A stretch of DNA of 64,000 nucleotides from Williamsia sp. DF01-3 (GTDB lineage Bacteria > Actinomycetota > Actinomycetes > Mycobacteriales > Mycobacteriaceae). Positions 2,616 through 60,349 of the stretch are shown here, in pieces; position 1 is the stretch's first letter; each line of letters opens with the position of its first letter. Made by a program: the position numbers and the translations under genes. The notes beneath the pieces are model-generated. The model was not told the DNA's origin and ran no database searches. It was given only the letters and a program-made list of their open reading frames with translations. The stretch lies in assembly GCF_023051145.1 (NCBI RefSeq), contig NZ_JALKFS010000005.1, positions 3,241,733-3,305,732 of the forward strand. The letters run 5' to 3'.

Positions 2616-3289
2616 TTGAATCAGCTCCTGCTCGGCGAGGGATTTCCCCACCGGCCTCGCCGGGAGCTCGCACCCGGCGCGGTCCATATCCCGGCCTGGT
2701 TGACGCTCGAGCAGCAGCGGTGGCTCGTGGCGCAGTTCAACGAGTGGGCGACCGGACCGGTACCCATCCGCGCGGCGCGGGTGCGTGGTCGTGAGATGTC
2801 GGTGCAGATGGTGTGTCTCGGGTGGCATTGGCAGCCGTATCGGTACAGTCGGACGGCCACCGATGTCAACGGTGCGCGAGTCCTCGACTTCCCGGACTGG
2901 ATGGCCCGACTCGGCCGCAAGGCAGTCGCAGACGCTGCCGAGCACACGCCGTCCGGGGAGGCCTATGAGCCGGACGTCGCCCTCGTCAATTACTACGACG
3001 ACTCTGCTCGCATGGGAATGCACCAGGACAAGGACGAGCTCTCCAGAGCGCCTGTTGTCTCCCTGTCGATCGGTGACACATGCCGATTCCGATTCGGGAA
3101 CACCGAGAGCCGGACTCGCCCGTACACCGACATCGACCTCGAATCCGGCGATCTGTTCGTCTTCGGGGGCCTTCGCGGCTGGCCTACCACGGGGTCACGA
3201 AGATATACCCGCAAACCGCACCATCCGGTTGCGGTCTGACCCAGGGCCGGATCAACATCACCATTCGGATGACAGGGATGGAGGGCTGA
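2616..3289 (+). CDS. alkB: AlkB-type alkylated-DNA repair dioxygenase, frameshifted near the 3' end
   Basis: Fe(II)/2-oxoglutarate dioxygenase that removes alkyl groups from DNA bases. The start is TTG 2616, preceded by AAAGGAG at 8-nt spacing. The first frame gives NYYDDSARMGMHQDKDE with metal ligands His136 and Asp138, then RFRFGNTE. After the five-G run at 3165-3169 this frame loses the family sequence and stops at 3239. The neighbouring frame continues with PSRLAYHGV (third metal ligand His) and RINITIR (2-oxoglutarate-binding RxNxTxR), ending at TGA 3289. One extra G in the run restores a 224-aa protein of normal length. As written, the product would lack essential residues. It converges on the acyl-CoA reductase gene. 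Confidence 0.9.
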
Positions 3290-3293
3290 CCGC

Positions 3294-5303
3294 CTACCAG
3301 TAGATTCCGGGGACGAGACGCGCAATCCGTTTCGCGGACTTGGGGATCGGCGGGGTGACCGGCAGGCTCGACCGCGCCTGACGATCTGCCGACGGCTCCG
3401 CCGAAGCGGCTCCGTCATCCGCCGGTGCACCCTTGGCTGCGGCGGAGTCCGGGAACAGGCGGTAGGCCTGATGCAACAAGAGATGTTTGAAGCGGGGCGC
3501 GAACAACCCGGTGAACTCGGCAGCGGTACCGACCGGGGTGTCGATCCTGTCGGGACGTTTCTCGAGCGCGCGGACCACCATCTTCGCCGCGTCGTCGGGT
3601 GAGGCCACAGGAAGCGATTGATAGATCGTCGTGGGCGCGATCATCGGAGTCCGCACCAACGGCATCCGGATCGAGGTGAACGTGATCCCGTCGTCCAGGG
3701 TTTCCGACGCGATCACGTCGCTGAACGCATCAAGCGCCGCTTTGCTCGCGACGTAAGCCGAGAACCGCGGCACCTTGCTCTGCACCCCGATGGACGAGAT
3801 GTTCACGATGTGGCCGAAACGACGTTCGCGCATCGATGGCAGCAGCGCGAGGACCAACCGAACGGCCCCGAAGTAGTTGACCGCCATGGTTCGTTCGAAA
3901 TCATGCATCCGGTCCGTCGACTGCGCGATGCTCCGCCGAATGGAACGACCGGCATTGTTGACGAGGTAGTCGACGTGGTCGTGTTCGTCGAGGGCCGTCT
4001 TGACCATGGTCTCCACCGATTCGTGATCGGTGATGTCGCACGGGTAGCCGAACGCCGAACCTCCCTCTGCTCGAATGTCTTCCACTGCCGCCTGTAGGTC
4101 CTCTGCGCCGCGAGCGATGAGCAGGACCGTCGCTCCGCGTTGGGCGATCTTGTGCGCGGAGGCCAGACCGATTCCCGACGATGCACCCGTGATCATCACG
4201 ACCCGGTCTGTGAGTTCTCCTGCGGGACTGGGCCTTCGGGCCAGATCCGGATCCAGGTGGTCGTACCAGTACCGCCAGAGCTTGTCGGCATACGATCCGA
4301 ACTTCGGTACTGTCAGACCACTGTCGGCCAGAGCAGCTCTTGTGGTCGCCGAGGCGAACAGAGAGGGGAACGTGAGATGTTCGATGACCACGGGCGGTAT
4401 CCCGATCTGGTCGAGCACGAGATCGCGCGCGATCTTCACGCCCGGTAGATCGCCGAGCCCGAGAAGCGGACGTGCGATCGGCGCCGGTACAGAGCCCACC
4501 GCCATCGGCGCACCTGCGGCACGCGCCAGTGCTCCGTAGACCTCGCGGACCGACTGGGGCTTCGGGTTGACCAGATGGAAGGCCCGCCCGTCGAGGCCGG
4601 GCTGCAACATGAGCTCCACGAGCGCCGCGGCTACGTAGTCGACAGGCACCATGTTGGTGGTGCCGATGTCAGGTACCGCGGTGGGCAGAAACGACGGCAG
4701 TCGGCTGAGCATTCTCAGTGCGGTGAAGAAGTAGTACGGACCGTCGATCTTGTCCATCTCGCCGGTCTCCGAGTTACCGACGACGATTGCAGGCCGGTAC
4801 ACCCGCCACTTCAGTCCCGGTGATTGACGAACCAACTGCTCGGCGATGAACTTCGTCTCGTGGTACGGCGAGGGAAGCCCTTGCCCCAGGTCGAAATCGT
4901 CCTCGGTGAAGACTCCGGCATGGTCGCCCGCCACCGCCACCGAGGACACGTGGTGGAACGTGGCGTCGAGTTCGTGAGCCAGGTCGATCATCGATCGGGT
5001 GCCGTCGACATTGGCCGCCTTCGATTCCTCGGCGCTTGCGGTCATGTCGTACACCGCACCGAGATGCAGGACGTGATCTGCTGCCGGCGGCGGCTTCTCG
5101 AGGCCCAGTCCCGGCGCGGTGAGGTCCCCGACGATCGGAACCACCCGATCGCCGCCCACCCAGGTGGCTGCCAGCCGCTCCATCCGCTCGACGGAAGCTT
5201 TGCGCACCAGCACATAGACCTGAGACTTGGGATCTCGTTCGAGAAGTTTTGGCAATACGTTCCGACCAAGGAAGCCGGTTCCACCGCTCACCATGTATGC
5301 CAT
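3294..5303 (-). CDS. acrA1: Two-domain fatty acyl-CoA reductase (extended SDR + classical SDR), AcrA1-like
   Basis: 669-aa fusion. The N-terminal extended SDR/NAD-binding-4 domain has GGTGFLG at 7-13 and YHETK at 147-151, as in fatty acyl-CoA reductases; the C-terminal classical SDR has GASSGIG at 373-379, NNAG at 449-452 and Tyr517/Lys521 of YVASK. This domain order is that of mycobacterial AcrA1-type fatty acyl-CoA reductases, which make fatty aldehyde or alcohol for wax esters and cell-envelope lipids. The start is ATG 5303 with GGAGG upstream; a longer frame to 5441 has no domain support. A TTAC-N6-GTAA dyad at 5351-5368 lies about 50 bp upstream and could be a TetR/FadR-type operator. 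Orthology to AcrA1 rests on domain architecture only. Confidence 0.88.
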   Translation of the reverse strand: MAYMVSGGTGFLGRNVLPKLLERDPKSQVYVLVRKASVERMERLAATWVGGDRVVPIVGDLTAPGLGLEKPPPAADHVLHLGAVYDMTASAEESKAANVDGTRSMIDLAHELDATFHHVSSVAVAGDHAGVFTEDDFDLGQGLPSPYHETKFIAEQLVRQSPGLKWRVYRPAIVVGNSETGEMDKIDGPYYFFTALRMLSRLPSFLPTAVPDIGTTNMVPVDYVAAALVELMLQPGLDGRAFHLVNPKPQSVREVYGALARAAGAPMAVGSVPAPIARPLLGLGDLPGVKIARDLVLDQIGIPPVVIEHLTFPSLFASATTRAALADSGLTVPKFGSYADKLWRYWYDHLDPDLARRPSPAGELTDRVVMITGASSGIGLASAHKIAQRGATVLLIARGAEDLQAAVEDIRAEGGSAFGYPCDITDHESVETMVKTALDEHDHVDYLVNNAGRSIRRSIAQSTDRMHDFERTMAVNYFGAVRLVLALLPSMRERRFGHIVNISSIGVQSKVPRFSAYVASKAALDAFSDVIASETLDDGITFTSIRMPLVRTPMIAPTTIYQSLPVASPDDAAKMVVRALEKRPDRIDTPVGTAAEFTGLFAPRFKHLLLHQAYRLFPDSAAAKGAPADDGAASAEPSADRQARSSLPVTPPIPKSAKRIARLVPGIYW

Positions 5304-5350
5304 CAGACCTCGACCTCCACGCTCATCGTTCACACTCGGCTGTCGGCGCG

Positions 5351-5368
5351 CGTTACTCGTCGGTAACG
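5351..5368. promoter_or_regulatory. Candidate operator upstream of the fatty acyl-CoA reductase
   Basis: Perfect inverted repeat CGTTAC-TCGTCG-GTAACG (6-bp arms, 6-bp spacer) about 48 bp upstream of ATG 5303. The TTAC-N6-GTAA core resembles operators of actinobacterial lipid-metabolism TetR/GntR regulators. No regulator gene lies next to it, so the cognate protein is unknown. Confidence 0.4.
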
Positions 5369-5448
5369 AGGGTAGGTCAACAGATCGCCCAGCAACTCCC
5401 GGTTCTGTATATTCCCGGCGACCTACCCGCCGGGCGATCACCAGCGAG

Positions 5449-6599
5449 TCACATGTTCGTACCGACGATCCGACCGCCGCCTGCGTTCTTGGCCCGGTAC
5501 ATCGCCGCGTCGGCGTTACCGACCATCACATCGACGATGTCGCCGTTCGGCGGGGGCCACGAGGGCACAAACGTCGTGACCGTCCCGATGCTGACGGAGA
5601 CGAAATCGGTGCCTTCTCCCCCGCAAGACTCTGCCGGATCCGTTCGGCGAAGGCCTGGGCCTGCTTGGCATCGAGGTGCGCGAAGATCGCGAACTCGTCG
5701 CCTCCGATTCTCGCGAGAGCGTCAGCTCCCCGGCACAAATCGGCAAGGCAGTTCGCTGTGCGCGTCAGAACGGCATCCCCGGTGATGTGGCCGTGCGCGT
5801 CGTTGATCGATTTGAACTTGTCGATGTCGACCACAAACGCGGTGAGTGGTGACCACGGCGGATAGACAGCATGCGACTGCTGCAACGCCTCGGCCAGACC
5901 ACGCCTGTTCAACACGCCGGTGAGTGCGTCCGTGAACGACTCCTTCGCGTCGCGACGCAGGAATGTGAGCGCGATCTGCGCGAGGATGTTCGTCGAGAGT
6001 CCGGCGCACATTGCGGTGAGTGCGAGCGCGGAGGCCACCAGGACGGACGTGCCAGGCGACATCACCGAGTACGTGTACGTGGCAACGATGACAACAAAAA
6101 GGTAGGCCAGCTGCGCGGACATCAATCGGGGCCCGTGAACAAAAGTCACGTACATCCCCGGGACCACAAACAGATTCAGCAGGGCAAGGGCCACGAGTGG
6201 CTCCCCGACGAACAAATAGGTGGTGATGGCCGCGTCGACGAAAACGACGAACCATGCCGAGGTCTTCTCGCGGGGCCACGGACCAAACCACCATGCGACC
6301 GAACAGACCGCGAAGCCCATCGCTGCCGCCAGCACAAGACCGTTGGTCAACAAGCACCCGCAGGGGTTGATCAAGATGACGAGTGCCCCGAACAACGCGT
6401 ACACGAGGCAGCAGATCATCGCGCAGACACGGGTGACCAACAGCCACGTGCGCGACTCACCGTAGGTGTGCGCCCATTCGTAGTCGTAGGGCTGGGTGTA
6501 CCACCAGCGCACAAGGCGAAAAACAACAGCCCAACGGTGTTTGCGAGATGGCTGTGGCAGACGAGGCTGTCCACGCTCGGTCCCGCGGAGAAGCCTCAT
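5449..6599 (-). CDS. Membrane-anchored diguanylate cyclase (GGDEF), frameshifted near the 3' end
   Basis: Synthesises cyclic di-GMP. About 200 residues form roughly six transmembrane helices, followed by a GGDEF domain starting at DALTGVLNRRG (about 224). GGDEF itself is at 299-303, and RGAD at 290-293 with a five-residue gap to GGDEF is a good inhibitory I-site, so product feedback is likely. The frame then diverges after the five-C run at 5618-5622 (plus strand) and stops at 5526. The adjacent frame carries DFVSVSIGT and the family ending DAAMYRAKNAGGGRIV, stopping at 5449. One extra base restores about 383 aa. There is no N-terminal PAS or response-regulator domain, so the membrane segment is the likely sensor. 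Confidence 0.88.
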
Positions 6600-6868
6600 T
6601 CACCTTCTATCGTGACGGATGGTCAAAGCGTTAGATCCTGTTCGCAGTCGAGCACGGACTGGTTCGGGTGTCGACACTGGACACCTACCTCAGACGACAG
6701 AACCCAGGCCGCGGTTTCATCTCGAAGAGATGGCGCAACAGACTGATTCCGTAGAAGTTGCCTTTCGGACAGATGATTGACGCTCGCAAATCTGGGTACA
6801 TCGATCCTTAGGTTGGAGCCGACGGCCTATCTCTGCATCTACTTACTAGAGAGAACGCGAGACACACA
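6600..6868. other. Divergent intergenic region, 269 bp
   Basis: Non-coding spacer between the diguanylate cyclase (leftward) and the stress-protein operon (rightward). It must hold both promoters. A GGGTAC hexamer at 6794-6799 resembles a SigB/SigF-type -10 element, which would fit the stress-type genes downstream, but I see no convincing matching -35. No RNA gene or repeat was seen. Confidence 0.35.
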
Positions 6869-7680
6869 ATGACATCTTCAAGTGGTATTCCCATCCACGA
6901 TCAGATGACGCCGAGTTCTGGGCCATCGCCGACTTCTGGTGAGACGTCAACCGCGGACGTCGCCAAGCAGCAAGCAGGCGATGTTGCAAGTGGCGCGACA
7001 GATGCCGGTAAGCATGTTGCATCGGTCGCAGGCGATCAGGCGTCGCAGGTCGCCGGCGAGGCCAAGACCCAGGCGAAAGACCTGCTGCACCAGACCAAGG
7101 GCGAACTGACAACGCAGGCTTCCGAGCAGCAGAAGCGTGTTGCCGGTGGTCTGCGGGCACTCTCCGACGAGTTCGGATCGATGGCCGACAAGTCCGAGAA
7201 TCAGGGTATGGCAACCGATCTCACGCGTCAGGCCGCCCAGCACGCGCAGACGGTCGCATCGTGGCTCGACGACAGGGAGCCCGGCCAGATCCTGGACGAG
7301 GTGACCCGATTTGCCCGGCGCAAGCCCGGCATGTTCTTGGCTTTGGCTGCAGGTGCCGGTCTCGTGGCCGGGAGGCTCGGTCGAGGACTGACCGCAGCCA
7401 ACAGTGACAGCGGCTCCAATGCGGGCGGAACGCCCAGTGCGGCGAACCTCCCCGACAACACGCAAACCGCGCCCATCCCGCCGATCCAGGCAGCTCCCCC
7501 GGTCGCCGGCTACGGCAGCGGACAGCATGCAGCGCCGCCTGCGCAGCCCGGTTACGTACCCGAGCCTCCCCGTACACCGTCGCGCCGGGATATCAAACGC
7601 AGCCCGGTTACCAGGCACAGCCGGGTTACCAGCAGCAGCCCGGCTACCAGCAGCCGCCGGCCCCGGGCGTGAACCCATGA
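6869..7680 (+). CDS. Repeat-tailed stress/envelope-associated protein, frameshifted in the C-terminal tail
   Basis: Product not recognised by name. From ATG 6869, residues 1-110 are Ala/Gln/Lys-rich amphipathic sequence (LEA/CsbD-like in composition), and residues about 140-160 form one hydrophobic Ala/Gly helix after RKPGMF; this layout is common in actinobacterial proteins beside holin-X and DUF3618 genes. After the four-C run at 7568-7571 the frame becomes Arg/Ser-rich and ends at 7672. The other frame gives four PGYQ-type repeats and ends at TGA 7680, overlapping the next ATG by 4 nt (ATGA). One missing C explains this and restores about 270 aa. Confidence 0.75.
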
Positions 7681-8734: not shown

Positions 8735-8862
8735 CGTGGGGTGCCGCGCGGTGGGTCTCCTATCGCGCGGCCACGCGTGCGGCCGCGAACCGTTCGGGAT
8801 CGATCCCGCCCCGCGATCCTTTATCGTTCTTGCACCACCCACAAAGGAAAAATGAGGCAGAC

Positions 8863-9252: not shown

Positions 9253-9269
9253 CCGTCTTTCACACCCCA

Positions 9270-9300
9270 CTTCCGGCCCTGACCCAGTCAGGGCCGGAAG
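9270..9300 (+). terminator. Strong hairpin after the DUF732 lipoprotein
   Basis: Perfect 14-bp stem, CTTCCGGCCCTGAC / GTCAGGGCCGGAAG, with a CCA loop, 17 bp after the stop codon. There is no U tract, as is common for actinobacterial terminators. It separates the stress block from the HxlR gene. Confidence 0.8.
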
Positions 9301-9316
9301 TTCATCTCCAGCTGGG

Positions 9317-9336
9317 TTCATAGTCTAGACTGTGAA
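9317..9336. promoter_or_regulatory. HxlR operator overlapping a candidate leaderless promoter
   Basis: TTCATAGTCTAGACTGTGAA is a 20-bp dyad with one mismatched pair, ending 2 bp before the ATG of the HxlR gene. TAGACT (9326-9331) could be the -10, placing transcription start at the ATG itself, so the mRNA may be leaderless and autorepressed. No Shine-Dalgarno is visible. Confidence 0.5.
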
Positions 9337-9338
9337 CC

Positions 9339-14089: not shown

Positions 14090-14224
14090 TACGTGGAAGG
14101 TCCTAACTGTTGGCCCCGACTAGGGGACGCGCGGCCTGAGCCGGCACGACGCATCCTCCGTCAGTACCCCGTGCAACGTAAACGCAAACCGGACATGTCA
14201 CCACCCGTGTGGCGTGTACCGCGA

Positions 14225-36792: not shown

Positions 36793-36884
36793 ACGAGGGT
36801 CTCCGGCGACCGCTTTCCTGACAGCACAGTGCACACCGGCTACCGTCCGACCATGGGATTGCACCGCTCCGCACCGACTCGAGG

Positions 36885-38378
36885 GTGGCGATGGAGGTGA
36901 GCGCCGCCACGCCCACCTCCAGGCCCACGCCCGGTCCCGTCCTGGTTGTCGCGATCCTCGCGTCTTTTGTCGCGTTCCTCGACGGATCGGTGGTGAACCT
37001 CGCCCTTCCCGCCATCTCAGACGACCTGGGAGGTGGGCTGAGTACACAGCAGTGGGTGGTCGATTCATACCTCCTCACCCTGGGCGCACTGATTCTGGTG
37101 GCCGGCGCGATCTCTGATGCGTTCGGGCGCTTGCCGATGCTCCGGATCGGGCTCGTGATCTTCGGCCTGGCATCCGTCGCGTGCGCGGCAGCGCCGACCG
37201 ACCTCGTCCTGATCATCGCCCGCGGGCTGCAGGGTGTGGGTGCGGCCCTGCTGGTGCCCAGTTCGCTCGCATTGATCAACTCGGCCTTCACCCCGGACGA
37301 CCAGCCCAAAGCGATCGGTACGTGGACCGCATGGACGGGCACGGCCTTTGTGATCGGTCCACTACTCGGTGGTGTACTCGTCGACACGTTGAACTGGCGG
37401 TGGATCTTTGCCGTCAACGTCGTGCCGGTGGCGATCACCCTGGTGCTGTCGATGCGACTCGTCGAACCGGCTCGGACGACACCGCGCGAACGCATCGACG
37501 TACCAGGCGCAGTGCTGACGGCCGGGGGTCTCGCCGGAACCGTCTACGCCCTCATCGAGCAGCAACGTCTCGGTGTCGGCAACCCTGCGGTGGCTGCAGC
37601 TTTGGCACTCGGACTGTTGTGCCTGGCCGGGCTGGGCTGGCGCGAAACGCACACCGACCATCCGATGATCCCAGCGAAGATGTTCGCGGTCAGGAACTTT
37701 GGTGTCGGCAATCTCTCGACGACGTTCATCTACGCCGGATTGTCGATGGGCACGCTGGTGACGGCTCTGTTCCTGCAAGAGGTCGCGGGCTTCTCGGCGC
37801 TGATGGCCGGGCTCGCGACGTTGCCGGTCCCGCTGCTCTCGTTCTTCATCGCTCGACCGGTGGGGGCGCTCTCGGCACGATACGGGCCCCGCGTGTTCAT
37901 GGCGTCCGGGCCGATCATCGCCGGATGCGGTTACCTGCTCATGCTCACCACTGTCGACGGTTTCGATTTCTGGACACAGATGCTCCCCGGGCTCGTGCTC
38001 TTCGGGCTCGGCCTGTCGATCACCGTCACGCCGCTGACCTCGGCCGTCCTTGCATCGATCGATCGGCAACACAGCGGGATCGGCTCGGCGTTGAACAACG
38101 CGATCTCACGTATCGCCGGCCTGATCGCTGTTGCCTGCACCGGGATCATCGTGGGCGGCACGCTGGACACCGCGTCATTCCACCGTGTTCTGGTGGTGAC
38201 CGCGGCCCTGTTCATAATCGGCGGCGTGGTGGCGGCCTTCGGTATCCGCAACCACGGCCACCATCCCGAACAGGTCGCGGTGACAGCGGCCGCACAGTGC
38301 TGTGATCGCTCGACCACTCCCCTGACGTCCGGCCGGTCGTCGGCCAGTGACGGCGTGCATCCACCGATGCCCCGATGA
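36885..38378 (+). CDS. MFS transporter, DHA2-type
   Basis: 497 aa, about 14 transmembrane helices: FVAFLDGSVVNLALPAISDD opens the first helix, loop 2-3 has SDAFGRLPML (motif A), and TAFVIGPLLGGVLVDTLNWR is motif C. Typical proton-driven multidrug exporter. The start is GTG 36885 or ATG 36891. A 40-residue hydrophilic C-terminal tail is low complexity. Divergent from the lipase-like gene. Confidence 0.88.
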   Translation: MAMEVSAATPTSRPTPGPVLVVAILASFVAFLDGSVVNLALPAISDDLGGGLSTQQWVVDSYLLTLGALILVAGAISDAFGRLPMLRIGLVIFGLASVACAAAPTDLVLIIARGLQGVGAALLVPSSLALINSAFTPDDQPKAIGTWTAWTGTAFVIGPLLGGVLVDTLNWRWIFAVNVVPVAITLVLSMRLVEPARTTPRERIDVPGAVLTAGGLAGTVYALIEQQRLGVGNPAVAAALALGLLCLAGLGWRETHTDHPMIPAKMFAVRNFGVGNLSTTFIYAGLSMGTLVTALFLQEVAGFSALMAGLATLPVPLLSFFIARPVGALSARYGPRVFMASGPIIAGCGYLLMLTTVDGFDFWTQMLPGLVLFGLGLSITVTPLTSAVLASIDRQHSGIGSALNNAISRIAGLIAVACTGIIVGGTLDTASFHRVLVVTAALFIIGGVVAAFGIRNHGHHPEQVAVTAAAQCCDRSTTPLTSGRSSASDGVHPPMPR

Positions 38379-38815: not shown

Positions 38816-39964
38816 TCAGGCCTTGGTGAGCGCCGCGTATCGCGCTATGTGCATGTCCGCAGAACCGAACTCGTACTCAATGGCCGTGAGCCGTTTGAAG
38901 TAATGACCGATCGCGAGTTCCTCGGTCATGCCCATCCCACCGTGCAACTGAACGGCATTCTGCCCGATGAATCGCGCCGCCCGACCGATGGTCGCCTTTG
39001 CCGCCGACACCGCCAGCGCGCGTTCGGTAGGCTCGGCCTCCAGATTCAAGATGGCGAGGTACACCGCGGCAATCGACTGTTCGAGCTCCATGTACATGTC
39101 GACCATCCGATGCTGCAACGCCTGAAAACTGCCGATCGTCTGACCGAACTGCTGACGCTGCTTGGCGTATTCGACAGTGTCTCCCAACACTTTTCGCATC
39201 AGTCCGACAGCCTCTGATGCCACCGCCGCCGTGGCCTCGTCCACTGCACGGTCGATCGACGCCCACGCATCGCCTTCGCCACCCAGAAGGGCATCGGCGG
39301 GTAGGCGCATCCCGGAGAACACGAGATCCGCCGCACGCCGGTCATCGATGGTGCGGTAGGCGTGAACGGCCAGACCTTCAGGAGGGTTGTCGGCATCAAC
39401 ATCAACAAGGAACAACGAGATCCCCGAGGTGTCGCGTCGCCCGCCCGCAGTCCGGGCCGTGACAAGCAGATGGCCGGCGAGGGGTGCACTGCTGACAACC
39501 ACTTTCGTGCCGTCGAGCACCCACTCGTCGCCGTGTCTACGGGCGATCGTCGACACGTCATTGAAGTCAGGACCCGATGTGGGTTCGGTGGCAGCGAACG
39601 CCGTGACCGCATCCCCCGCGATGAGTTTCTCGAGAACGGCCGTGGCGCGGTCCCCGCCCGCCCGTTGCAACAGACCGCCGCCGAAGACAACTGTGTCCAC
39701 GAAGGGCTCGACAACAAGCGCCTGGCCGAGTGCTTCGGTGACGATCATCAATTCGACCGGCCCACCACCGATTCCACCGGCTTCCTCTGGAAGGGTCGCA
39801 CCCAGGATCCCGAGTTCGTCGGCGAAGGCTCGCCAGATCGACGGCTGCCATCCTGCCCCGGTCTTGGCGGCCGCCCGACTCTTCTCCAGGTCGTAACGGT
39901 TGGCCAAGAACTTGGCGAGGCCATCGCGGAGCAGTTCTTGCTCTTTGGTCAAGTTGAAGTCCAT
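38816..39964 (-). CDS. Acyl-CoA dehydrogenase, PimD-like small subunit
   Basis: 382 aa with the acyl-CoA dehydrogenase fold; FAATEPTSGPDFND (about 124-137) is the FAD/substrate loop and ending HYFKRLTAIEYEFGSADMH resembles the small subunit of pimeloyl-CoA dehydrogenase (PimD). It starts at ATG 39964, overlapping the upstream dehydrogenase stop as TGATG. In heterodimeric actinobacterial dehydrogenases the two chains share one FAD-binding active site, so both genes are needed. Confidence 0.88.
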   Translation of the reverse strand: MDFNLTKEQELLRDGLAKFLANRYDLEKSRAAAKTGAGWQPSIWRAFADELGILGATLPEEAGGIGGGPVELMIVTEALGQALVVEPFVDTVVFGGGLLQRAGGDRATAVLEKLIAGDAVTAFAATEPTSGPDFNDVSTIARRHGDEWVLDGTKVVVSSAPLAGHLLVTARTAGGRRDTSGISLFLVDVDADNPPEGLAVHAYRTIDDRRAADLVFSGMRLPADALLGGEGDAWASIDRAVDEATAAVASEAVGLMRKVLGDTVEYAKQRQQFGQTIGSFQALQHRMVDMYMELEQSIAAVYLAILNLEAEPTERALAVSAAKATIGRAARFIGQNAVQLHGGMGMTEELAIGHYFKRLTAIEYEFGSADMHIARYAALTKA

Positions 39965-41195
39965 CAGAGCCCCAATGCTGCTTTTGCGAGAATGTTCCGC
40001 TGAATTTCGTTGCTACCGGCGTAGATCGAGCCCGCCCGGTCATTGAAGTAACGCAGTGGCGCGACTGCCTCCCACGGTTCACCGCTGACGTAACCGTCCG
40101 CGGGCTCGGTGAACTCGGAGATCGGACCACCAGGCTTGGTCGCGTGCGGTTGGTAGACCCGTCCGCGTGTACCGGCGGCCTCCAGGGTGAGTTCGGTGAG
40201 CTTCTGGCTGAGCTCGGTCGCGAGCACTTTGAGCATCGACGAGGCAGGACCCGGATCTATGCCCGACGCCATCGCCGACAGCGTTCGGTATTCCAGGATC
40301 TCGAGAACCTTTGTGCGAATGCGGGCTTCGGCCAGCTTGGCAGAGAACGCGGGATCGTCGATGAGCGGGCGTCCACCAGGCCCCGGCTGCGACGCCGCCG
40401 AGGTGGCCAGTGACTCCGCCATCACCTGCAACGCCGGGGCGGCCGCGCCCCCGCCTCGCTCGAACACGAGGAGATACTTCGCCACGGTCCAGCCGTCATC
40501 GATCTTTCCGAGCACGTTTGCCTTGGGCACCCGCACATTGTCGAAGAACACCTGGTTCTGGACCTGCTCGCCCGATGTCATCACCAATGGCCGTACTTCG
40601 ATGCCCGGCGAGTTCATGTCGATCAACACGAAGGTGATGCCCTGCTGCTTCTTCTGCTGCCGGGATGTGCGAACGAGGCAGAACATCCAGTTCGCCTCGG
40701 TGGCATGGGTTGTCCAGATCTTGCTGCCGGTGCAGACCAGGTCATCGCCGTCGTCCTTCGCCGCCATCGAGAGGGACGCAAGATCCGAACCGGCCTCGGG
40801 TTCGGAATATCCCTGGCAGAAAAAACCTCGCCGGTGAGGATCCCGGGCAGATAGTAGTCCTTCTGTTCCTGGGTGCCAAAGGCGATGATGGCGTGGGCAA
40901 CCATCCGAATCCCCATGGGAGACAACGACGGTGCCCCGGCGATGATGGACTCGCGACTGAAGATGTAGTGCTGGGTGAGGGTCCAGTCGCAACCGCCGTA
41001 CTCGACCGGCCACGCAGGCGCTGCCCAGCCCCGCTCGTGCAAGATGCGCTGCCACTCCATGCTCGCCTCGTGGTCGGAGTAGACGCTGGTCATCAGACGG
41101 CCCGCCCGGCGCAGGTCCGGGGTCAACTTCTCGTCGAGGAAAGCGCGCACCTCGTCTCGAAACTCCGAATCGGCGGCCGACCATTGCAAGTCCAT
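39964..41195 (-). pseudogene. Acyl-CoA dehydrogenase, PimC-like large subunit, frameshifted
   Basis: The N-terminal frame starts at ATG 41195 (AGGAG upstream) and reads MDLQWSAADSEFRDEVRAF...YYLPGILTGEVF. At the six-A run 40820-40825 (plus strand) it loses phase; the other frame continues FCQGYSEPEAGSDLASL and runs to the family ending SIYAGSNEIQRNILAKAALG. One extra base in the run gives an uninterrupted protein of about 410 aa, normal for PimC/FadE large subunits. Likely an artefact, because partner and regulator are intact. It oxidises a CoA thioester with the PimD-like subunit. Confidence 0.88.
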
Positions 41196-41222
41196 GTGCG
41201 CTCCTGAAGCGGTGTGCTGATT

Positions 41223-41238
41223 GACCGGAGGGCCGGTC
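41223..41238. promoter_or_regulatory. Dyad between dehydrogenase operon and TetR gene
   Basis: GACCGG-AGGG-CCGGTC, a perfect 6-bp inverted repeat in the 60-bp divergent spacer between ATG 41195 (leftward) and ATG 41256 (rightward). It is a likely operator for the TetR protein. Confidence 0.5.
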
Positions 41239-41255
41239 GGAGACAAAATCTACTT

Positions 41256-41973: not shown

Positions 41974-42684
41974 ATGACTGACATCCGCTGGGCAACGTTC
42001 GACTGTTACGGCACGTTGATCGACTGGCGTCACGGTCTCTCGACCGGGATGGAGCTTGTCTTCCCGGGCCGCGGCGCGGGCCTCCTCGACGCGTTCAACC
42101 GGCACGAACCGCAGGTCCAGGCCCAGTACCCGGAGATGCGCTACCGCGATGTGTTGACCGAGGCGTTTCGGCGCACCGCCGACGAAGCCGGACTTGTCCT
42201 CAGACTCGACGACGCGGACGTGCTGGCCGCAGGTATCGCCTACTGGCCGGCCTTTCACGACACAGCTGCGGAGCTGGCCCGCCTGCGGGCGTCAGGGTGG
42301 CGTCTCGCCCTGCTGACCAATTGCGACCGCGACATCATCGGCGCAGCGCAGCGCCGCCTCGGGACTCCTGTCGATGCGGTGATCACCGCTGAGGACGTGG
42401 GCTCGTACAAGCCGGCCCATCCGCACTTCGAAAGGTTCGCCCAGACCTTCGAGCCCGGACCCGGTCAGTGGGTCCACGTCGCGCAGGGCTACTTCCACGA
42501 CATCATCCCGGCTCATGCTCTCGACATCCCCCGGGTGTGGGTCAACAGACTCGGCCAGAGCGACGACCCGTCCATCGCCGATGCGGTGGTCCCCGACCTG
42601 AGCAGGCTGACCGAGGTGGTCGCCGCGGTCGGTACCGCCGCCGCACGCCGCGAGGAGTCGAACGTCACGCACCGCGATGTGTAG
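41974..42684 (+). CDS. Haloacid dehalogenase-type HAD hydrolase
   Basis: 236 aa. Motif I WATFDCYGTLIDWRHG with nucleophile Asp10, motif II ALLTNCDRD, motif III Lys in DVGSYKPAHPHFERF, motif IV region HVAQGYFHDIIPAHAL. This pattern is that of type-II 2-haloacid dehalogenases, though many relatives are phosphatases. The GTLIDW cap loop supports the dehalogenase-like subgroup. The last 20 residues are variable. Confidence 0.87.
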   Translation: MTDIRWATFDCYGTLIDWRHGLSTGMELVFPGRGAGLLDAFNRHEPQVQAQYPEMRYRDVLTEAFRRTADEAGLVLRLDDADVLAAGIAYWPAFHDTAAELARLRASGWRLALLTNCDRDIIGAAQRRLGTPVDAVITAEDVGSYKPAHPHFERFAQTFEPGPGQWVHVAQGYFHDIIPAHALDIPRVWVNRLGQSDDPSIADAVVPDLSRLTEVVAAVGTAAARREESNVTHRDV

Positions 42685-48633: not shown

Positions 48634-49665
48634 TCACAGAATTCCGGATTCGCGCCCTACCTGCACGGTGCGGACGACAAGATCGTCGATGACCTTGTTC
48701 GTGGGTCCGCCGTCGCGCGAAGCATTGCGCGGATCGTTGATCAATCGTCGTCGAACGCCCTCGGCGATGATGGTCAACCGCCACAGGGCAAGGGTGTGCC
48801 AGTAGCCCACATCGGTCACGTCCCGACCCGTCGCCTCGGCATAGCCGGCGATCAACTCGGCCCGCCGCGGGAACCCCGGCAGTGTCGGCGCGGTGAAGTG
48901 CCCGGCCACCCCGTCTCCGGCTTCCGGCCAGAACGCCAACAGGTTGCCCAGGTCGGCGAGCGGTTCACCGAGCGTGCACAGCTCCCAGTCCACGATGCCG
49001 ATCACTTCACCGTTGTCGACCCCGGTGATCACGTTGCTCATGTAGTAGTCGCCGTGCACCAGTGTCACCTCGGACTGATCAGGGGCGTGCGCGGCAAGCG
49101 CCTGGGCGACCTCGGTGATCTCGGCGATGTCCTGGGTCTTGGAGTGTTCCCATTGCGCCGACCAGCGCTTGAGCTGTCGGGCCGCAAACGGCTTGTTGCT
49201 CGCCAGATCGTCGAGACCGACCTTGGCGAGGTCGACCGAATGAACGGTGCCCAGTGCCCGCGGCAGACTCAACCCGATGGCTCGCCGCCGCTCGGGCGAC
49301 AGTTCCGAAGCCACCGCCACATCGTCGACCACAACCCCGTCGACATAACCCATCAACACAAGCGGGGCGTCTGTGACAGCCGGATCACTGGTGGTGGCGA
49401 TCATCTTCGGCACCGGCACCGGGGTGTTCTGCAGTGCAGACATGATCCGGTGTTCGCGCAGCACATCATGTGCCGATGCCAGCAACGCTCCCAGTGGCGG
49501 GCGACGGAGTACCCAGTGCCGGCCACCGGCGTCCCCGACTCGATACGTCAGATTGGACTGACCATTGCCGATACGCGAAAACGTCAGCGGGGCAACAGCT
49601 CCGATGTCGAGACCGACGATCCATTCGGTGACGAGATCAGTGTCTATCCCGACGGCCGAACTCAT
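48634..49665 (-). CDS. APH-family kinase, LvaA/ACAD11-kinase-like
   Basis: 343 aa protein-kinase-like phosphotransferase: [13 protein letters not shown] nucleotide loop, [12 protein letters not shown] (HGDxxxxN catalytic loop) and [19 protein letters not shown] (DxD/DFG-equivalent). Its start overlaps the upstream acyl-CoA dehydrogenase stop by 4 nt (ATGA). The kinase plus acyl-CoA dehydrogenase pairing is the separated form of human ACAD10/11 and of Pseudomonas LvaA/LvaC, where the kinase phosphorylates a 4-hydroxyacyl-CoA. The substrate here is inferred. Confidence 0.85.
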
Positions 49666-50886
49666 GCCTTCGCCTCTGTCTTACGGTAGGGCCCGAGCTC
49701 CTGGCGCGCGATGGTCCGCTTGTGCACCTCGTCGGGACCGTCGGCCAGACGAAGTGCGCGCAGGTGCGCGTACATGCTGGCGAGTGGGAAGTCGTCGGAC
49801 ACCCCTCCCCCTCCGTGGACCTGTATCGCCCGGTCGACGATCTTGAGCGCCATGTTGGGTGCGGCGACCTTGATGGCAGCGATCTCGGTGCGCGCTTGTT
49901 TGTTCCCCACCGTGTCCATCAACCACGCCGCCTTGAGGGTGAGCAGTCGATTCATCTCGATGTCGATGCGCGCCTCGGCGATCCAATCCTGGATGTTCGC
50001 CTGGGCGGCGAGCGGCTTACCGAATGCGATGCGCGAGGAAGCGCGCTCACACATCAGCTCCAGAGCGCGCTCGGCCATCCCGATTGCTCGCATGCAGTGG
50101 TGTATCCGCCCCGGACCGAGGCGGGCCTGCCCGATCATGAAACCTGCGCCGGCCCCGGCCAGGACTATCGCTGTCGGGCACGCGTACGTCCTCGAAGAGA
50201 ACCTCGGCGTGTCCCTCCCTGTCCTGGTACCCGAACACCGGCAGGTTGCGGATCACCCTGACACCTGGAGCGTCGATCGGGACCACCATCATCGATTGCT
50301 GCGCGTGAGCGGCCGCGTCGGGATCGGTCTTTCCCATCACGATCAATACTTTGCAGTTGGGGTGTAAAGCGTTCGACGTCCACCACTTTCGGCCGTTGAG
50401 GACCCACTCGTCCCCCGACCGGGTCATGCTCATCTGGATGTTTGTGGCGTCGGAGCTGGCGACCGCCGGTTCGGTCATCGCAAACGCGGACCGGATCGTG
50501 CCCTCGAGGAGTGGTGTCAGCCAGCGCTCCTTGTGTTCATCACTGCCGAACAATGACAGCACTTCAATGTTCCCGGTGTCCGGAGCCGAACAGTTGGTCG
50601 CCTCCGGTGCCAGTGCAGCACTTCGACCCATGATCTCGGCGAGTGGCGCGTACTCCGAGTTGGTCAGACCTGCGCCGTAGCGGGGATCGGGATGGAAGAG
50701 ATTCCACAGCCCGCGCTCTTTCGCCTCGGTTTTGAGTTCTTCGATGATCGGCGGGTCGAAATGCGGATCGCCGGATTCGGCCATTTGCCTGGCGTAGATC
50801 TCCTCCGCCGGATACACGTGCCCCGTCATGAAATCGAGAAGGCGATCTCGGTATTCGAGGCATCGGTCGGAATAAGCGAAATCCAT
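49662..50886 (-). pseudogene. Acyl-CoA dehydrogenase, LvaC/ACAD11-like, frameshifted
   Basis: The N-terminal frame starts at ATG 50886 ([19 protein letters not shown]) and runs to VLFEDVRVP near 50180. The C-terminal frame begins about 50175, [20 protein letters not shown], and reaches the normal end, [14 protein letters not shown]. Removing one C of the run at 50176-50178 (minus-strand CCC; or restoring two lost bases) gives a full-length protein of about 407 aa with the usual VP-x6-GxGxGF spacing. Catalytic-end signature [12 protein letters not shown] is in the second frame. It overlaps the kinase gene by 4 nt. Confidence 0.87.
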
Positions 50887-52266: not shown

Positions 52267-52379
52267 TTGCTGAGCGTAACGGCGATCGAGCCGCCTCACG
52301 CAGTGTTCGATACGAACCCGATCCTTCGACAACCGGCCGCCGTACAATTCTTGCGCACAGCCGGATTGCCGGTTTCACC

Positions 52380-55175: not shown

Positions 55176-55323
55176 CACGGCGCCTCCTCGCGTCCAATAC
55201 CCGGCATGACGTTCACCCGGCGCATCCGAACAGAGCATAAAGAACGACGCGGGCGGCAGTCCGCGCTACGGCGGCTTTGCGAATTGCCCGGCACAGCCGA
55301 GGCGCGGAGAAGATACTTGGGGC

Positions 55324-55707
55324 GTGGTGACAACGGACAGTGGAGAAGACGGCCACGAACGGCAGCGTTTCCGGAAGCTGGCGCAAGCGGCGATGAACGC
55401 AGACGTCACTGTCGGGGAACTGGACACGATCATCGGCGACCTCGGCGGGGCCCTCACCGACTTCGACAGGGCGATGGGCGAGTTCGACAGGACCCTCGGC
55501 AGTTTCGGCGCGGCCATGGACGACTTCTCGGCGACGCTGACGCGGGTGGACAGCACGGTCACGAAAATGGTCGCGGTGGTCGAACGGATCGAACGTGTTG
55601 TCGGACGGGTGGAGAACATCGTCGATGTCGCCGAAACACTGATTGCACCGGTGGCATCCGCCGAGGCGATGGTGCGTGGCCTGCTGGGAATCGGACGCCG
55701 GCGCTGA
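55324..55707 (+). CDS. Coiled-coil protein, function unknown
   Basis: 127 aa, GTG start at 55324. Almost entirely helical with heptad-like Val/Ile/Met spacing from residue 30 (MGEFDRTLGSFGAAMDDFSA, then VVERIERVVGRVENIVDVAE), no transmembrane segment. The phasing recalls small methyl-accepting-like or phasin-type coiled coils, but I assign no function. It lies between the FAD dehydrogenase and AraC genes. Confidence 0.7.
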   Translation: MVTTDSGEDGHERQRFRKLAQAAMNADVTVGELDTIIGDLGGALTDFDRAMGEFDRTLGSFGAAMDDFSATLTRVDSTVTKMVAVVERIERVVGRVENIVDVAETLIAPVASAEAMVRGLLGIGRRR

Positions 55708-55721
55708 CCGTCACCGCGACC

Positions 55722-56570
55722 TCAATCCCGCCGGGCGGCAGACCGCACGTAGTCACTGGGTGTCCGACCGACAACAGCCTTGAACTCGCGGGCCAGGTGC
55801 GCCTGATCGGAGTATCCAAGTGACGCTGCCACATCCGCTACCGACATCCGGCCTTCACGCAGGGCGAGCGCGGCGTCTTGCAACCGGCGACGCTGGATCA
55901 ACCACTTGGGGCTCAGGCCCGTTCGATGTACGCACAACCGCTGAAGGGCGCGCGTGGACATGTTCACCGCGTCTGCGAGTTCGGCGACGCGGCGCGGCCC
56001 GTCATCGTCTTCGACCACATCGACGACCCGGTTGATCAACTCGCCTTCGTCATCGATCTCCCACTCCGTGGCCCAGTCGAGGTATACGGACAGGACCGCC
56101 TCGTAGGCGCGCCGATCCGATTCCGAGTGTGAGCGCATCGCCGTCCGCACTGCTCCTGCGACATCGACCCGGCCGGGGATGGGCAGAGGCTCACCGATCG
56201 GCAACACCGGTCCGCCAACCGTCGCACCCGCCAGCGATCTGCCTGTCATCAGAGTGATCGCGGCCGGTCGCAGCAGAACTGCCGCGGCCCAGCTCTTCCC
56301 TTCGAGCTTCTGCTCACTCGTCCCCTGACTGACGCAGTACAGCGCAGCCTTCTCCGGCTCGACGACCACGTTCCCACCGGGGTGCTCGAGAACTGGTTGA
56401 ACGATTGGTGCCGGAAGGTTCCAGCATGCGATCCAGACATGCCGCAAGATGCTCCCGGCCTGGTGTCCGGGAGGGATCGCGAGGCGTGAGATCTGTACGC
56501 CACCGGCGCCCGGGCGCAGGTCGCCACGCGGCCCGACGGGCCCATGGTGGGAACTGTCGCGTTTTTTCAA
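55722..56570 (-). CDS. AraC-family transcriptional regulator
   Basis: 282 aa. The C-terminal AraC DNA-binding domain is RVAELADAVNMSTRALQRLC and MSVADVAASLGYSDQAHLAR (two helix-turn-helix units, about residues 198-275), ending FKAVVGRTPSDYVRS. The N-terminal 180 residues form a sensor of the AraC DUF6597-like class (HVWIACWNLPAP). Divergent from the VOC gene with only 35 bp between starts, so promoters overlap coding sequence and the two are likely coregulated. Confidence 0.88.
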   Translation of the reverse strand: MKKRDSSHHGPVGPRGDLRPGAGGVQISRLAIPPGHQAGSILRHVWIACWNLPAPIVQPVLEHPGGNVVVEPEKAALYCVSQGTSEQKLEGKSWAAAVLLRPAAITLMTGRSLAGATVGGPVLPIGEPLPIPGRVDVAGAVRTAMRSHSESDRRAYEAVLSVYLDWATEWEIDDEGELINRVVDVVEDDDGPRRVAELADAVNMSTRALQRLCVHRTGLSPKWLIQRRRLQDAALALREGRMSVADVAASLGYSDQAHLAREFKAVVGRTPSDYVRSAARRD

Positions 56571-56605
56571 GCGCTCACACCCTGCGTCAGTGGACCATCG
56601 CCTTC

Positions 56606-57111
56606 ATGAGTATCCACGCTGCCAACGGGCAATTCACCGATCACGGAATCCCCCACGGCTATACCTCCCTCACACCCTTCATCGTCGTCACGCCTGCTGC
56701 CGAGGCAATCGAGTTCTACAGCAACGTCTTCGGGGCACGCGTTGAACAGCGCACCGACTTCCCCGGTCCCGACGGTGAACCGATTGTCGCGCATGCCGAC
56801 CTCGACTTCGGGACGGGGCGTCTACAACTGGGCGACCCCAACCCTCAGTATGGACTGGTGCCGAGGCCAGACGGGGACTCCGACTGTTACTCGATGGCCA
56901 TCTACGTCACCGACGTGGATGCCGTGGTGCAGCGGGCCGTCGATGCGGGTGCGATCATCCGCGAGGAGGTACAGACATTCGTCTCCGGTGATCGGTTCGG
57001 CTCGGTGCGCGACCCTTTCGGGGTCCGATGGTCGGTGATGACCCGGATCGAAGACCTCTCCCCGCCGAGAGCGCCGCGAGAATCGAGGAGTGGGCCACGC
57101 AGCAGGGCTGA
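56606..57111 (+). CDS. VOC/PhnB-like glyoxalase-superfamily protein, frameshifted at the 3' end
   Basis: ATG 56606, GYTSLTPFIVVTPAAEAIEF (first beta-alpha-beta unit) and VRDPFGVRWSVMTRIEDLS (C-terminal unit). After the four-C run at 57060-57063 this frame changes to Arg-rich sequence ending at 57130; the adjacent frame ends in SAARIEEWATQQG at TGA 57111, the PhnB-family ending. One extra C restores about 168 aa. These vicinal-oxygen-chelate proteins bind metal and act on small ligands. No SD is visible. Confidence 0.85.
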
Positions 57112-57182
57112 CGAACCGTTGACCCGGTGATCGGCGATCAATTGCCTTGCCCGGTCTCGTGCCCGCCTGAGAGCATCGCTGA

Positions 57183-57929
57183 ATGCTTGATGACGTCTTC
57201 TTCGCCGCTCACCAGGGACTGCCCCGCGAGGCACCGGGGTCGGTCGCGACGACTCAATTGCTGTTCAGGTTGGCCGACGTGAAGACGCCCGTTCCTCACG
57301 TCCTCGATGTCGGCGCCGGAACAGGTCCTGCCGCAATCGTTTTGGCGAAGCTGGGGGCTCGCGTGACGGCCGTGGACACTCATCGGCCCTTTTTGGACGA
57401 CCTGCTGTCCAACGCAATCACCGCAGGGGTGGCGGATTCGATCTCCATCGATGAGGTCGCGATGGAGACACTCGACTATCCCGACCACCATTTCGACCTC
57501 ATCTGGTCGGAGGGTTCGGCGTACATCATGGGCGTCGACAACGCGCTCAGGCGGTGGCGGCGGCTGCTCGCACCCGGTGGTGCCGTTGTACTCACCGACG
57601 CCAACTGGCTGACCACCGATCCGAGTCGCGAAGCGGCCGACTTCTGGCGATCCGCCGCTCCCGGGATGCGAACCGTCGCCCAGAGCATCGATGCGGCCCA
57701 GGCTCTGGGCTGGGTGGTGGCAGCGACATACCTGTTACCCGACAGCGACTGGGACGAGCTGTACGGCCCGCTGGCGGCAAGCATCAACCGCCTGCGCCAT
57801 GAACAGCGCGCCGACGACGAAGCCCTCGACATCGTCGAGGAGGAAATACACATCCGTCGCCGGTTCGGTGCAGAGTACGGCTACGTCGGGTATGTGCTGC
57901 GTCCCGCACAGACGGACACCGATGCGTAG
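57183..57929 (+). CDS. Class I SAM-dependent methyltransferase
   Basis: 248 aa with motif I VLDVGAGTGPAAIVLAKLGA (about 40-59) and HFDLIWSEGSAYIMGVDNAL followed by LAPGGAVVLTDANWL. Methyltransf_25/11 family, substrate unknown. It runs into the next gene after 9 bp, so the two are probably one transcript. Confidence 0.87.
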   Translation: MLDDVFFAAHQGLPREAPGSVATTQLLFRLADVKTPVPHVLDVGAGTGPAAIVLAKLGARVTAVDTHRPFLDDLLSNAITAGVADSISIDEVAMETLDYPDHHFDLIWSEGSAYIMGVDNALRRWRRLLAPGGAVVLTDANWLTTDPSREAADFWRSAAPGMRTVAQSIDAAQALGWVVAATYLLPDSDWDELYGPLAASINRLRHEQRADDEALDIVEEEIHIRRRFGAEYGYVGYVLRPAQTDTDA

Positions 57930-57938
57930 CGTGGGCCC

Positions 57939-59285
57939 ATGGGCATCACGCATTCGAGTACCGTCCCCACTCCTGTAGACGAGGTGTTCGCCTGGCACGG
58001 ACGGCCGGGCGCCTTCACGCGGCTGGCGCCACCCTGGGGACCACCGTCGTTGATCAAAGAAGCCGAGTCGCTCAGTGACGGAACTGCGGTGTTGGGGTTC
58101 CCGGGTGGACTGAAATGGGTCGCGCGGCATCAGCCATCGAGGTACCACCCGCCCAATCAGTTCGTGGACAAGCTGGACTCGTGGCCACTCAAGTCCGTGC
58201 TGACGTGGACGCACCACCACGGATTCTCTGCCGTCGACGCGAACTCCACACTGGTCACCGACACTGTCGACACACCGGTCCCGACTGCGTTGCTACGGCC
58301 CATGTTTCGCTACCGGCATCGCCAGCTCGCCGACGACCTGGCGGCCCACGCATGGGCGAGCGAGTTCGGGCGCGGACCGATGACCATTGCGATGACCGGC
58401 TCATCCGGCCTGGTGGGTACCGCTCTCAAGGCCTTCTTGACCACCGGCGGGCACCGGGTGATCTCACTCGTGCGCCGCGATCCCTCACACGGAGACGAGC
58501 GACGCTGGGATCCCGACAATCCGGCACCAGACCTGGTGGACGGCGTCGACGCAGTGGTCCATCTGGCCGGCGAATCCATCGCGGGCCGATTCAGTGACAG
58601 CCACAAACGAGCGGTGCGCGACAGCCGCATCGACCCGACGGCGAAGTTGTCGTCGGTGATCGCGGCAACCACACCCCAGCCCGCGCTCATCTGCGCCTCG
58701 GCCGTGGGCTTCTACGGCTACGACCGCGGCGACGAGCTGCTCGACGAAAAGGCCTCGCGTGGTGAGGGATTCCTTGCCGACGTTGTCGCTGGCTGGGAGG
58801 CGGCGACCGAAGCCGCAGGCGACTCCGGCGTCCGGGTGGTCATCGTCCGCACCGGCATCGTGCAGGCCGCGGCCGGTGGCACCCTACGGTTGTTACGCCC
58901 TCTGTTCACAGTGGGGTTCGGCGGGCGGATCGGGGACGGCAAGCAGTGGCTGCCGTGGATCGCGATCGACGATCTGGTGGACATCTACCATCGCGCCATC
59001 GTCGACGAGACGTTGCAGGGACCGATCAATGCGGTGGCACCGAATGCCGTGCGGAACAGCGACTACACCGCAGCCTTGGCCGGGGCGGTGCACCGGCCGG
59101 CGATCGTGCCCGTACCCAGCCTGGGTCCACAACTGATCCTCGGCGCGCAAGGCGCTCGCGAACTCGCGTTGGCCAACCAGCATGTGGTGCCGTCCCGGCT
59201 CGCCGCGATCGGGCATCGCTTCCGGTGGCCGGAAGTATCCGACGCACTGCGCCATCAACTCGGCGGTGTCACCGGCCGGACGTAG
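57939..59285 (+). CDS. TIGR01777-family NAD-dependent epimerase with N-terminal SRPBCC domain
   Basis: 448 aa fusion. Residues about 1-140 are a SRPBCC-like helix-grip domain (VPTPVDEVFAWHGRPGAFTR); residues 150-448 are the TIGR01777 SDR with ITGSSGLVGTALKAFL-type (MTGSSGLVG) NAD motif, VVHLAGESIAGRF and the late IAIDDLVDIYHRAI. Related to cell-division inhibitor SulA-like/epimerase proteins found across bacteria, reaction unknown. It converges with the aldolase gene 18 bp downstream. Confidence 0.9.
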   Translation: MGITHSSTVPTPVDEVFAWHGRPGAFTRLAPPWGPPSLIKEAESLSDGTAVLGFPGGLKWVARHQPSRYHPPNQFVDKLDSWPLKSVLTWTHHHGFSAVDANSTLVTDTVDTPVPTALLRPMFRYRHRQLADDLAAHAWASEFGRGPMTIAMTGSSGLVGTALKAFLTTGGHRVISLVRRDPSHGDERRWDPDNPAPDLVDGVDAVVHLAGESIAGRFSDSHKRAVRDSRIDPTAKLSSVIAATTPQPALICASAVGFYGYDRGDELLDEKASRGEGFLADVVAGWEAATEAAGDSGVRVVIVRTGIVQAAAGGTLRLLRPLFTVGFGGRIGDGKQWLPWIAIDDLVDIYHRAIVDETLQGPINAVAPNAVRNSDYTAALAGAVHRPAIVPVPSLGPQLILGAQGARELALANQHVVPSRLAAIGHRFRWPEVSDALRHQLGGVTGRT

Positions 59286-59303
59286 GTCGGGAAGTGCACA
59301 CCT

Positions 59304-60349
59304 TTAGCGTGCGAGCTCTTTTCTGATGGTCTCGATGAAGCGGTCCACGTCGTCGTCGGTGGTGTCGAACGAACACATCCATCGCACCGTTCCCCCGACT
59401 CATCCCAGTCGTAGAAACGCCACGACTCACGGACCCGTTCGGCGGCTGCGCGATCGAGGACGGCGAACACGGCGTTCGACTCGGTGGACTGCGCGAAACG
59501 AAGCCCCGGAACACCTTCGAGACCGGCTCGTAGACGCGCAGCCATCGCGTTCGCGTGTGCGGCAGCGTGGATACCGTTGCCGTCCTCGAACAGTGCCAGC
59601 AGCTGCGCCGAGATGAATCGCATCTTGCTGGCCAGCTGCATGCTCAGTTTGCGTAGATAGATCAAGCCGTCGGCCCGGTCTGGGTCGATCACCACGATCG
59701 CTTCGGCGCCGAGCGCACCGACCTTGGTGGCGCCGAGGCTGACGATGTCCACACCGACGTCGGTGGTGAACCGCCCCATCGGCATCTGCAGGGCCGCAGC
59801 CGCATTCCACAACCTGGCTCCGTCGACATGCAACGCCATGTTGTTCCGGTGAGCGAAGTCGGCGTTGGCCGCGATCTCTGCGGGGGTGTAGAGCGTCCCG
59901 AGCTCGGTGACCTGGGTCAGGCTGACCACAGCAGGCTGTGCCCGGTGCTCGAATCCCCAGCCATAGGCCTCCGTCGCGATCAATTCCGGCGTCAGCTTGC
60001 CGTCCGGGGTGGGCACCGTCAGCAGTTTGATACCACTGACGCGTTCGGGCGCACCGCCTTCGTCGGTATGGACGTGCGCAGACTCCGTCACGATTGCCGC
60101 ACCCCAACGCGGCATCAGCGACGTCAGTGCCACCACATTGGCGCCGGTACCGTTGAAGACGGGGAAAACCTCGGCGCGAGAGCCGAATTCGTTACGGATG
60201 ACCGCCCGCAGCGCATCGGTGTAGTCGTCTTCGCCATAAGACACCTGATGGCCGCCGTTTGCCTCGGCGATGGCAGTCATCACCTCTGGCAACACTCCGG
60301 CGTAATTGTCGGACGCGAATGCACGCCACTCGGGGTCATGTCGTCTCAA
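59304..60349 (-). CDS. Low-specificity threonine aldolase family (PLP), frameshifted at the 3' end
   Basis: PLP-dependent beta-eliminating lyase. TTG start at 60349; SDNYAGVLPEV opening, NGTGANVVAL, HVDGARLWNAA with the PLP Asp, and SLGATKVGALGAEA with the PLP Lys. Splits L-threonine or related beta-hydroxy amino acids to glycine plus aldehyde. After the five-C run 59392-59396 (plus) the frame degenerates and stops at 59255; the alternative frame continues through DTTDDDVDRFIETIRKELAR, ending at 59304. One extra base restores about 348 aa. Confidence 0.87.

Follow-up and report, generated by a model that had tools for sequence, protein, structure and literature searches.

Bacterial genomes assembled from nanopore R9.4 reads and polished with Racon and Medaka are described, in the available text of PMC8011154, PMC6591954 and PMC12007338, as retaining errors in the length of homopolymer runs, and an excess of pseudogenes goes with them. 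A different class of nanopore error is bound to short motifs and stems from DNA modifications that the basecaller has not learned, as reported in the accessible parts of PMC6591954 (for Dcm sites) and PMC10687267.

The genome of Williamsia sp. DF01-3 (JALKFS000000000; 5,592,969 bp, 6 contigs, 442.9x coverage) was announced in PMC9670885. According to the available text of this announcement, reads were obtained on a MinION with R9.4.1 chemistry (SRR18733175), basecalled with Guppy 6.1.5 in high-accuracy mode, assembled with Flye and polished with Racon and Medaka, and short reads are not mentioned in that text. Five further genomes in the same announcement were produced by the identical method. 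The genome analyzed here consists of 5,592,969 bases in 6 contigs with a GC content of about 64%; its size and contig number agree exactly with Table 1 of PMC9670885 and, together with the genus, identify it as a nanopore assembly for which the text of that source gives no short-read polishing.

In the current study, frameshifted genes were analyzed in a stretch of 64,000 nucleotides of this genome (the window, C5:3241733-3305732) and, for comparison, in larger samples of the assembly. The shifts are almost certainly systematic consensus errors of the assembly. Between them and the R9.4 homopolymer errors described in the available text of PMC8011154, PMC6591954 and PMC12007338 there is essentially no difference: both consist of private one-base losses in runs that survived Racon and Medaka, moved the reading frame and produced false pseudogenes. 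In the present genome, with its GC content of about 64%, G/C runs held 41 of the 53 losses at runs of at least four bases.

Shifted genes in the window

The window was aligned with the syntenic region of its three closest congeners (G005, G006 and G008), which were 95-97% identical to it over the 5.7 kb that were tested first. These three alone were taken for alignment out of 60 hits to relatives and to the DF01-3 genome itself. The nearest matches of one window protein, at 99% identity, belonged to Williamsia muralis BULT 1.1, W. muralis NBRC 105860 and NRRL B-24581. The record of NRRL B-24581 carries the label Kitasatospora arboriphila.

A first-pass annotation, made from the window sequence alone, had listed seven frameshifted genes and attributed six of them to a single base missing from a homopolymer run. 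All six runs are present where they had been placed (Table 1), and at every one of them (6/6) the window lacks one base that all three relatives (3/3) have. The seventh gene, named LvaC-like, is shifted as well and has one base too many, but the extra base lies near 50165, outside any run; a GGG occupies 50176-50178, to which this shift had been assigned, and is identical in 3/3 relatives. The comparison with congeners, suggested at the same time as a check, revealed that none of the seven shifts is common to any of the three relatives (7/7 sites, 3/3 differing), and intact copies of the seven genes exist in the relatives. While the seven genes stand as shifted, the list was incomplete, as two more private shifts were detected near 38318 and 42640.

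Table 1. Shifted genes in the window. Positions are those of the window; gene ends and shift sites marked ~ are approximate.
Gene	Position	Strand	Site of the shift	Window compared with relatives	Protein
AlkB-type 2OG-Fe(II) oxygenase	~2568..3289	+	~3166, run of G at 3165-3169	1 base shorter than 3/3	intact relative 240 aa, PF13532
GGDEF diguanylate cyclase	~5450..6599	-	~5617-5622, run of C at 5618-5622	1 base shorter than 3/3	intact relative 383 aa, PF00990
Stress-protein-like (earlier name)	~6869..7680	+	~7567-7571, run of C at 7568-7571	1 base shorter than 3/3	relative 302 aa, no Pfam match
Acyl-CoA dehydrogenase-fold (earlier name PimC-like)	~39964..41246	-	~40820-40825, run of A at 40820-40825	1 base shorter than 3/3	relative PF00441, PF02770, PF02771
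Acyl-CoA dehydrogenase-fold (earlier name LvaC-like)	~49662..50886	-	extra base near 50165, off-run	1 base longer than 3/3	relative PF00441, PF02770, PF02771
VOC/glyoxalase-family	~56411..57114	+	~57059-57063, run of C at 57060-57063	1 base shorter than 3/3	relative PF00903
Beta-eliminating lyase family (earlier name threonine aldolase)	~59304..60349	-	~59391-59396, run of C at 59392-59396	1 base shorter than 3/3	relative PF01212
ORF absent from the earlier list	36885..38378	+	~38318, run of C, private	1 base shorter than 3/3	last residues altered; own 497 aa, G006 488 aa
HAD-family hydrolase absent from the earlier list	41974..42684	+	near 42640, private	4-base loss	C-terminal end altered; own 236 aa, G006 227 aa; relative PF00702

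The protein of the stress-protein-like gene has a C-terminus of low complexity.

At some of these sites the extra base of the relatives breaks up the run instead of lengthening it. This is the case in 3/3 relatives at 3166 and at 40821, in 2/3 at 59393 and in 1/3 at 5620. At such interrupted-run sites a substitution in the DF01-3 strain presumably lengthened the run, which would later have been under-called. Positions touching a run of at least four bases make up 3.8% of the window, and the probability that 6 of 7 sites would lie at runs by chance is about 2e-8, a value to be read with the caveat that the first-pass annotation had been looking for runs.

Conserved ORFs with a shifting indel were counted with each of the relatives as the reference, choosing ORFs that were intact in at least one other relative, a requirement that somewhat favours the relatives. 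With G006 as the reference, the automatic count gave 12/56 shifted ORFs in the window, 1/56 in G008 and 3/56 in G005. The corresponding numbers were 11/57 (window), 3/56 (G006) and 3/57 (G005) with G008 as the reference, and 12/54 (window), 2/53 (G006) and 2/53 (G008) with G005.

Among the 12 ORFs flagged with G006, three (near 14210, 36800 and 52368) represent no clear gene break. Another two, at the 38318 and VOC sites, are short ORFs antisense to a gene that had already been counted. For LtrA near 14210 and a PGAP1-like protein near 36800, the difference sits in a variable N-terminal stretch with several substitutions, and neither was accepted as a clear break. A split of a 741-aa ORF at 52368 was also rejected, since the substitutions private to DF01-3 before the site (4, 3 and 1 by codon position) formed no coding pattern in that frame. 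Substitutions before the site in the VOC gene (3, 5 and 3) showed no third-position excess either, and this gene was retained for the clear Pfam match of the intact relative.

Indel spectrum over about 1.08 Mb

Indels were also classified in two samples, each compared with one relative. G006 served for 800 kb of the contig that carries the window, the window itself being part of this sample, and G005 for 400 kb elsewhere. The aligned bases amounted to 748,610 and 327,380, respectively (1,075,990 in all). The run spectrum takes in events with at most three mismatches nearby, and the clean counts exclude any indel that exceeded a limit of two or three.

Non-coding one-base indels were nearly symmetric (losses vs gains 64 vs 63 in the G006 sample and 43 vs 52 in the G005 sample), as expected from natural differences. 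Among shifting one-base indels in genes, where the DF01-3 ORF was shorter or about equal in length, 66 losses were found vs 11 gains. Where the DF01-3 ORF was longer there were 22 losses and 13 gains, and these events are either natural differences or errors by which frames became fused.

Of the 66 losses, 42 were located at a run of at least four bases in either strain, and 28 left a run of exactly five in the DF01-3 genome. Some of these indels do not follow the pattern, since 15 losses (out of 66) and 8 gains (out of 11) were at neither a run nor the sequence GCCGGCC. The seventh site of the earlier list belongs to these off-pattern indels, as does a site in smc (a loss in AA). The earlier view that the errors always sit at runs holds for the six sites in the window, but errors also occur off runs, at the GCCGGCC hot spot described below, at the seventh site and in smc.

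The frequency of losses rose steeply as runs became longer. The share of G/C runs written one base short in the DF01-3 genome was 8 of 5,325 at a length of four, 11 of 1,138 at a length of five and 22 of 131 at a length of six. In the reverse direction, six G/C runs of three had become four, none had changed from four to five or from five to six, and one run of six was written as seven. A/T runs of at least four bases showed 12 losses and 4 gains. A bias towards losses that rises with run length is the pattern of systematic nanopore R9.4 errors. G/C runs of six were shortened to a similar extent inside (17/110) and outside coding sequence (5/21; Fisher P = 0.35), and runs of five somewhat less often in coding (6/916) than in non-coding sequence (5/222; P = 0.045).

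Distinct genes of the relative with a clean one-base loss in DF01-3 numbered 45 of 583 in the G006 sample and 15 of 270 in the G005 sample. Extrapolation of the 66 losses in 1.08 Mb leads to 343 one-base shifting losses in the whole genome, which is an order of magnitude only, because counts against a single relative take in natural differences and miss some errors.

In the single-relative count, the window contained 8 clean shifting losses against 3.6 expected from the rest (P = 0.03), which is too little to make it an exceptional region, since the window was picked because it had been noticed. Three of these 8 losses (near 6822, 21682 and 63469) also occur in one or more of the other relatives, which makes them natural differences. 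Two private losses (38318 and 57059) were missed by the single-relative classification.

Core genes and codon constraint

The clean sites (57) fell into 52 distinct genes, and 30 of these genes were scanned against NCBIfam. SMC, GlnD, UppP, HrpA, ZapE, CobN, RF3 and XerD were among the matches above cut-off in the 30 affected proteins of the relatives. The smc gene of DF01-3 is divided between one frame of 692 aa and another of 587 aa, the loss lying in AA, outside a long run, and no second full smc copy was found in the DF01-3 genome. The xerD orthologue is split over two frames, and the next match is 41% identical. The losses were blind to coding (P = 0.35 for the runs of six, P = 0.045 for the runs of five) and to the importance of the gene, as smc and xerD were split. 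A Clp ATPase-type gene (820 aa) was shifted as well; because other Clp copies exist, it was not used as an argument.

Of the 47 substitutions private to DF01-3 that follow the shifts, 31 affected the third position of a codon, compared with 438 of 622 in other conserved genes of the window (Fisher P = 0.51); the 47 substitutions include those of the 741-aa ORF that was later dropped, and without it the third-position share is 19 of 29. No relaxed constraint after the shifts was found in these window genes. The third-position share is alike in shifted and other genes and therefore no decay is visible, although very recent gene loss would leave no trace in this test either.

A gross defect of the assembly was detected at about C5:3164929-3165746, where 817 bases of long homopolymers replace 830 ordinary bases of G006. 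C accounts for 548 bases of the 816-base block. The replaced bases sit within an 806-aa ORF of G006, which we take, judging from its sequence, to be a 4-alpha-glucanotransferase. The 817-base stretch is a consensus failure and no biology, and it speaks independently for errors in the assembly.

A hot spot of losses at GCCGGCC

One base of CC or GG was lost at 14 of 1,424 GCCGGC sites vs 5 of 11,283 other NCCGGN sites (P = 3e-10). These losses occurred in both samples (9/981 and 5/443), and there was one gain in the first sample before filtering. In 13 of the 14 clean losses the outer flanking base extends the site to GCCGGCC or GGCCGGC.

Concentration of errors in a motif is characteristic of modification-mediated nanopore errors; in the available text of PMC10687267 and PMC6591954, as here, a short motif is miscalled far above similar sequences. 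Unlike in those cases, a base beyond the palindrome influences the signal, the NaeI and NgoMIV families are without a match, and the modification is hypothetical. The genome contains two C5-cytosine methyltransferase genes with no specificity assigned. A search of the DF01-3 genome for a GCCGGC restriction system with the Pfam families of the NaeI and NgoMIV endonucleases gave no match. An ORF adjoining one of the methyltransferases had no match in Pfam, NCBIfam, PADLOC or PDB at the thresholds used.

The losses at GCCGGCC and GGCCGGC might be the footprint of a Williamsia DNA modification not learned by the basecaller, possibly introduced by one of the two C5-methyltransferases, a reading that we consider rather unlikely. 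The need for a base outside the palindrome GCCGGC is also compatible with a plain bias of the basecaller. If the modification were real, a new modification motif would have come to light from miscalls in a public assembly.

Origin of the shifts

The first-pass annotation had proposed an error of run length in the underlying sequence. This proposal is supported by the nanopore-only assembly, the private nature of the shifts, the spectrum of losses, the shifted smc and xerD genes and the lack of visible decay. The same observations bear on the alternative that the genes are real, recent pseudogenes, lost by genuine frameshifts, for example through a repair defect that destabilises runs. The shifts are private to the strain, as recent mutations would be, and, to our knowledge, actinobacteria are largely without MutS/MutL mismatch repair, a system that limits run-length mutation. 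However, slippage is expected in both directions, and G/C runs of six had become five 22 times but five had never become six, with a single change from six to seven. Coding and non-coding runs of six were affected alike (17/110 and 5/21), smc and xerD are among the shifted genes, and codon constraint after the shifts is not relaxed, which together make genuine gene loss highly improbable.

Even less probable, to the point of being negligible, is programmed frameshifting or phase variation, in which the runs would serve as regulatory slippery sites. Six of the seven shifts do lie in runs, where phase variation usually arises, but at each site the length found in the window is not that of 3/3 relatives. 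A conserved slippery run was not found in the three relatives, an unbroken run being present in 0/3 of them at 3166 and 40821. Genes of many unrelated functions are affected across the sampled 1.08 Mb, and runs of four to six bases are short for such switching.

The shifts thus almost certainly arose as systematic consensus errors when Williamsia sp. DF01-3 was assembled from R9.4.1 nanopore reads alone, and the seven shifts most likely represent no biological feature. Each of the seven sites taken individually would, from the sequence comparison, be an error of this kind, the seventh, an insertion outside a run, being the least certain. The cause is probably that a homopolymer run moving through the pore leaves the signal nearly constant; a basecaller would for this reason under-count runs of about five or more bases. 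Most reads would then make the same mistake, and because they share it, the error could survive both deep coverage and polishing with Racon and Medaka.

Nanopore reads are prone to lose a base in runs; the shifts most likely point to errors of a public assembly and not to decay, and the real genes of the bacterium are very probably intact. By rough extrapolation the assembly carries about 300 one-base shifting losses, and smc and xerD are among the shifted genes. The finding is therefore a warning that gene content, pseudogene counts and gene loss in Williamsia would be misjudged from the DF01-3 assembly.

One-base losses and other anomalies in the assembly

One-base losses in the Williamsia sp. 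DF01-3 assembly (G000) were concentrated at GCCGGCC/GGCCGGC, away from any long run. In the two C5 samples counted (2640001-3440000 and 1940001-2340000), losses were found at 14 of 1,424 GCCGGC sites, compared with 5 of 11,283 other NCCGGN sites. A match to the NgoMIV endonuclease family lies close to a C5-methyltransferase in Williamsia muralis NBRC 105860 (G006), but a search for this family in G000 gave no match. In another genome, G004, a NaeI-family match is close to a methyltransferase.

At window positions 6822, 21682 and 63469, G000 differs from G006 by one base but agrees with at least one other relative, indicating natural variation and not errors.

Elsewhere on C5, a further Clp ATPase homologue is spread over several open frames (534, 577 and 226 aa), probably owing to further sequencing errors like those in the shifted window genes. 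Another stretch consists of about 817 bases of homopolymer gibberish, with C predominating, which stand in for 830 ordinary bases within an 806-aa ORF of the relative G006, presumably a 4-alpha-glucanotransferase (named from its own sequence).

Positions of the features outside the window
Feature	Genome and position	Sequence record or stretch
Clp ATPase homologue	G000:C5:1489683-1492283	
Homopolymer block	G000:C5:3164929-3165746	L179, about 4930-5746
NgoMIV-family match	G006:C6:68619-70828	L212, L269, L270

The record NZ_JNYV01000001.1 (L048), labelled Kitasatospora arboriphila NRRL B-24581, has about 95% identity to the window and, despite its label, is clearly a Williamsia.
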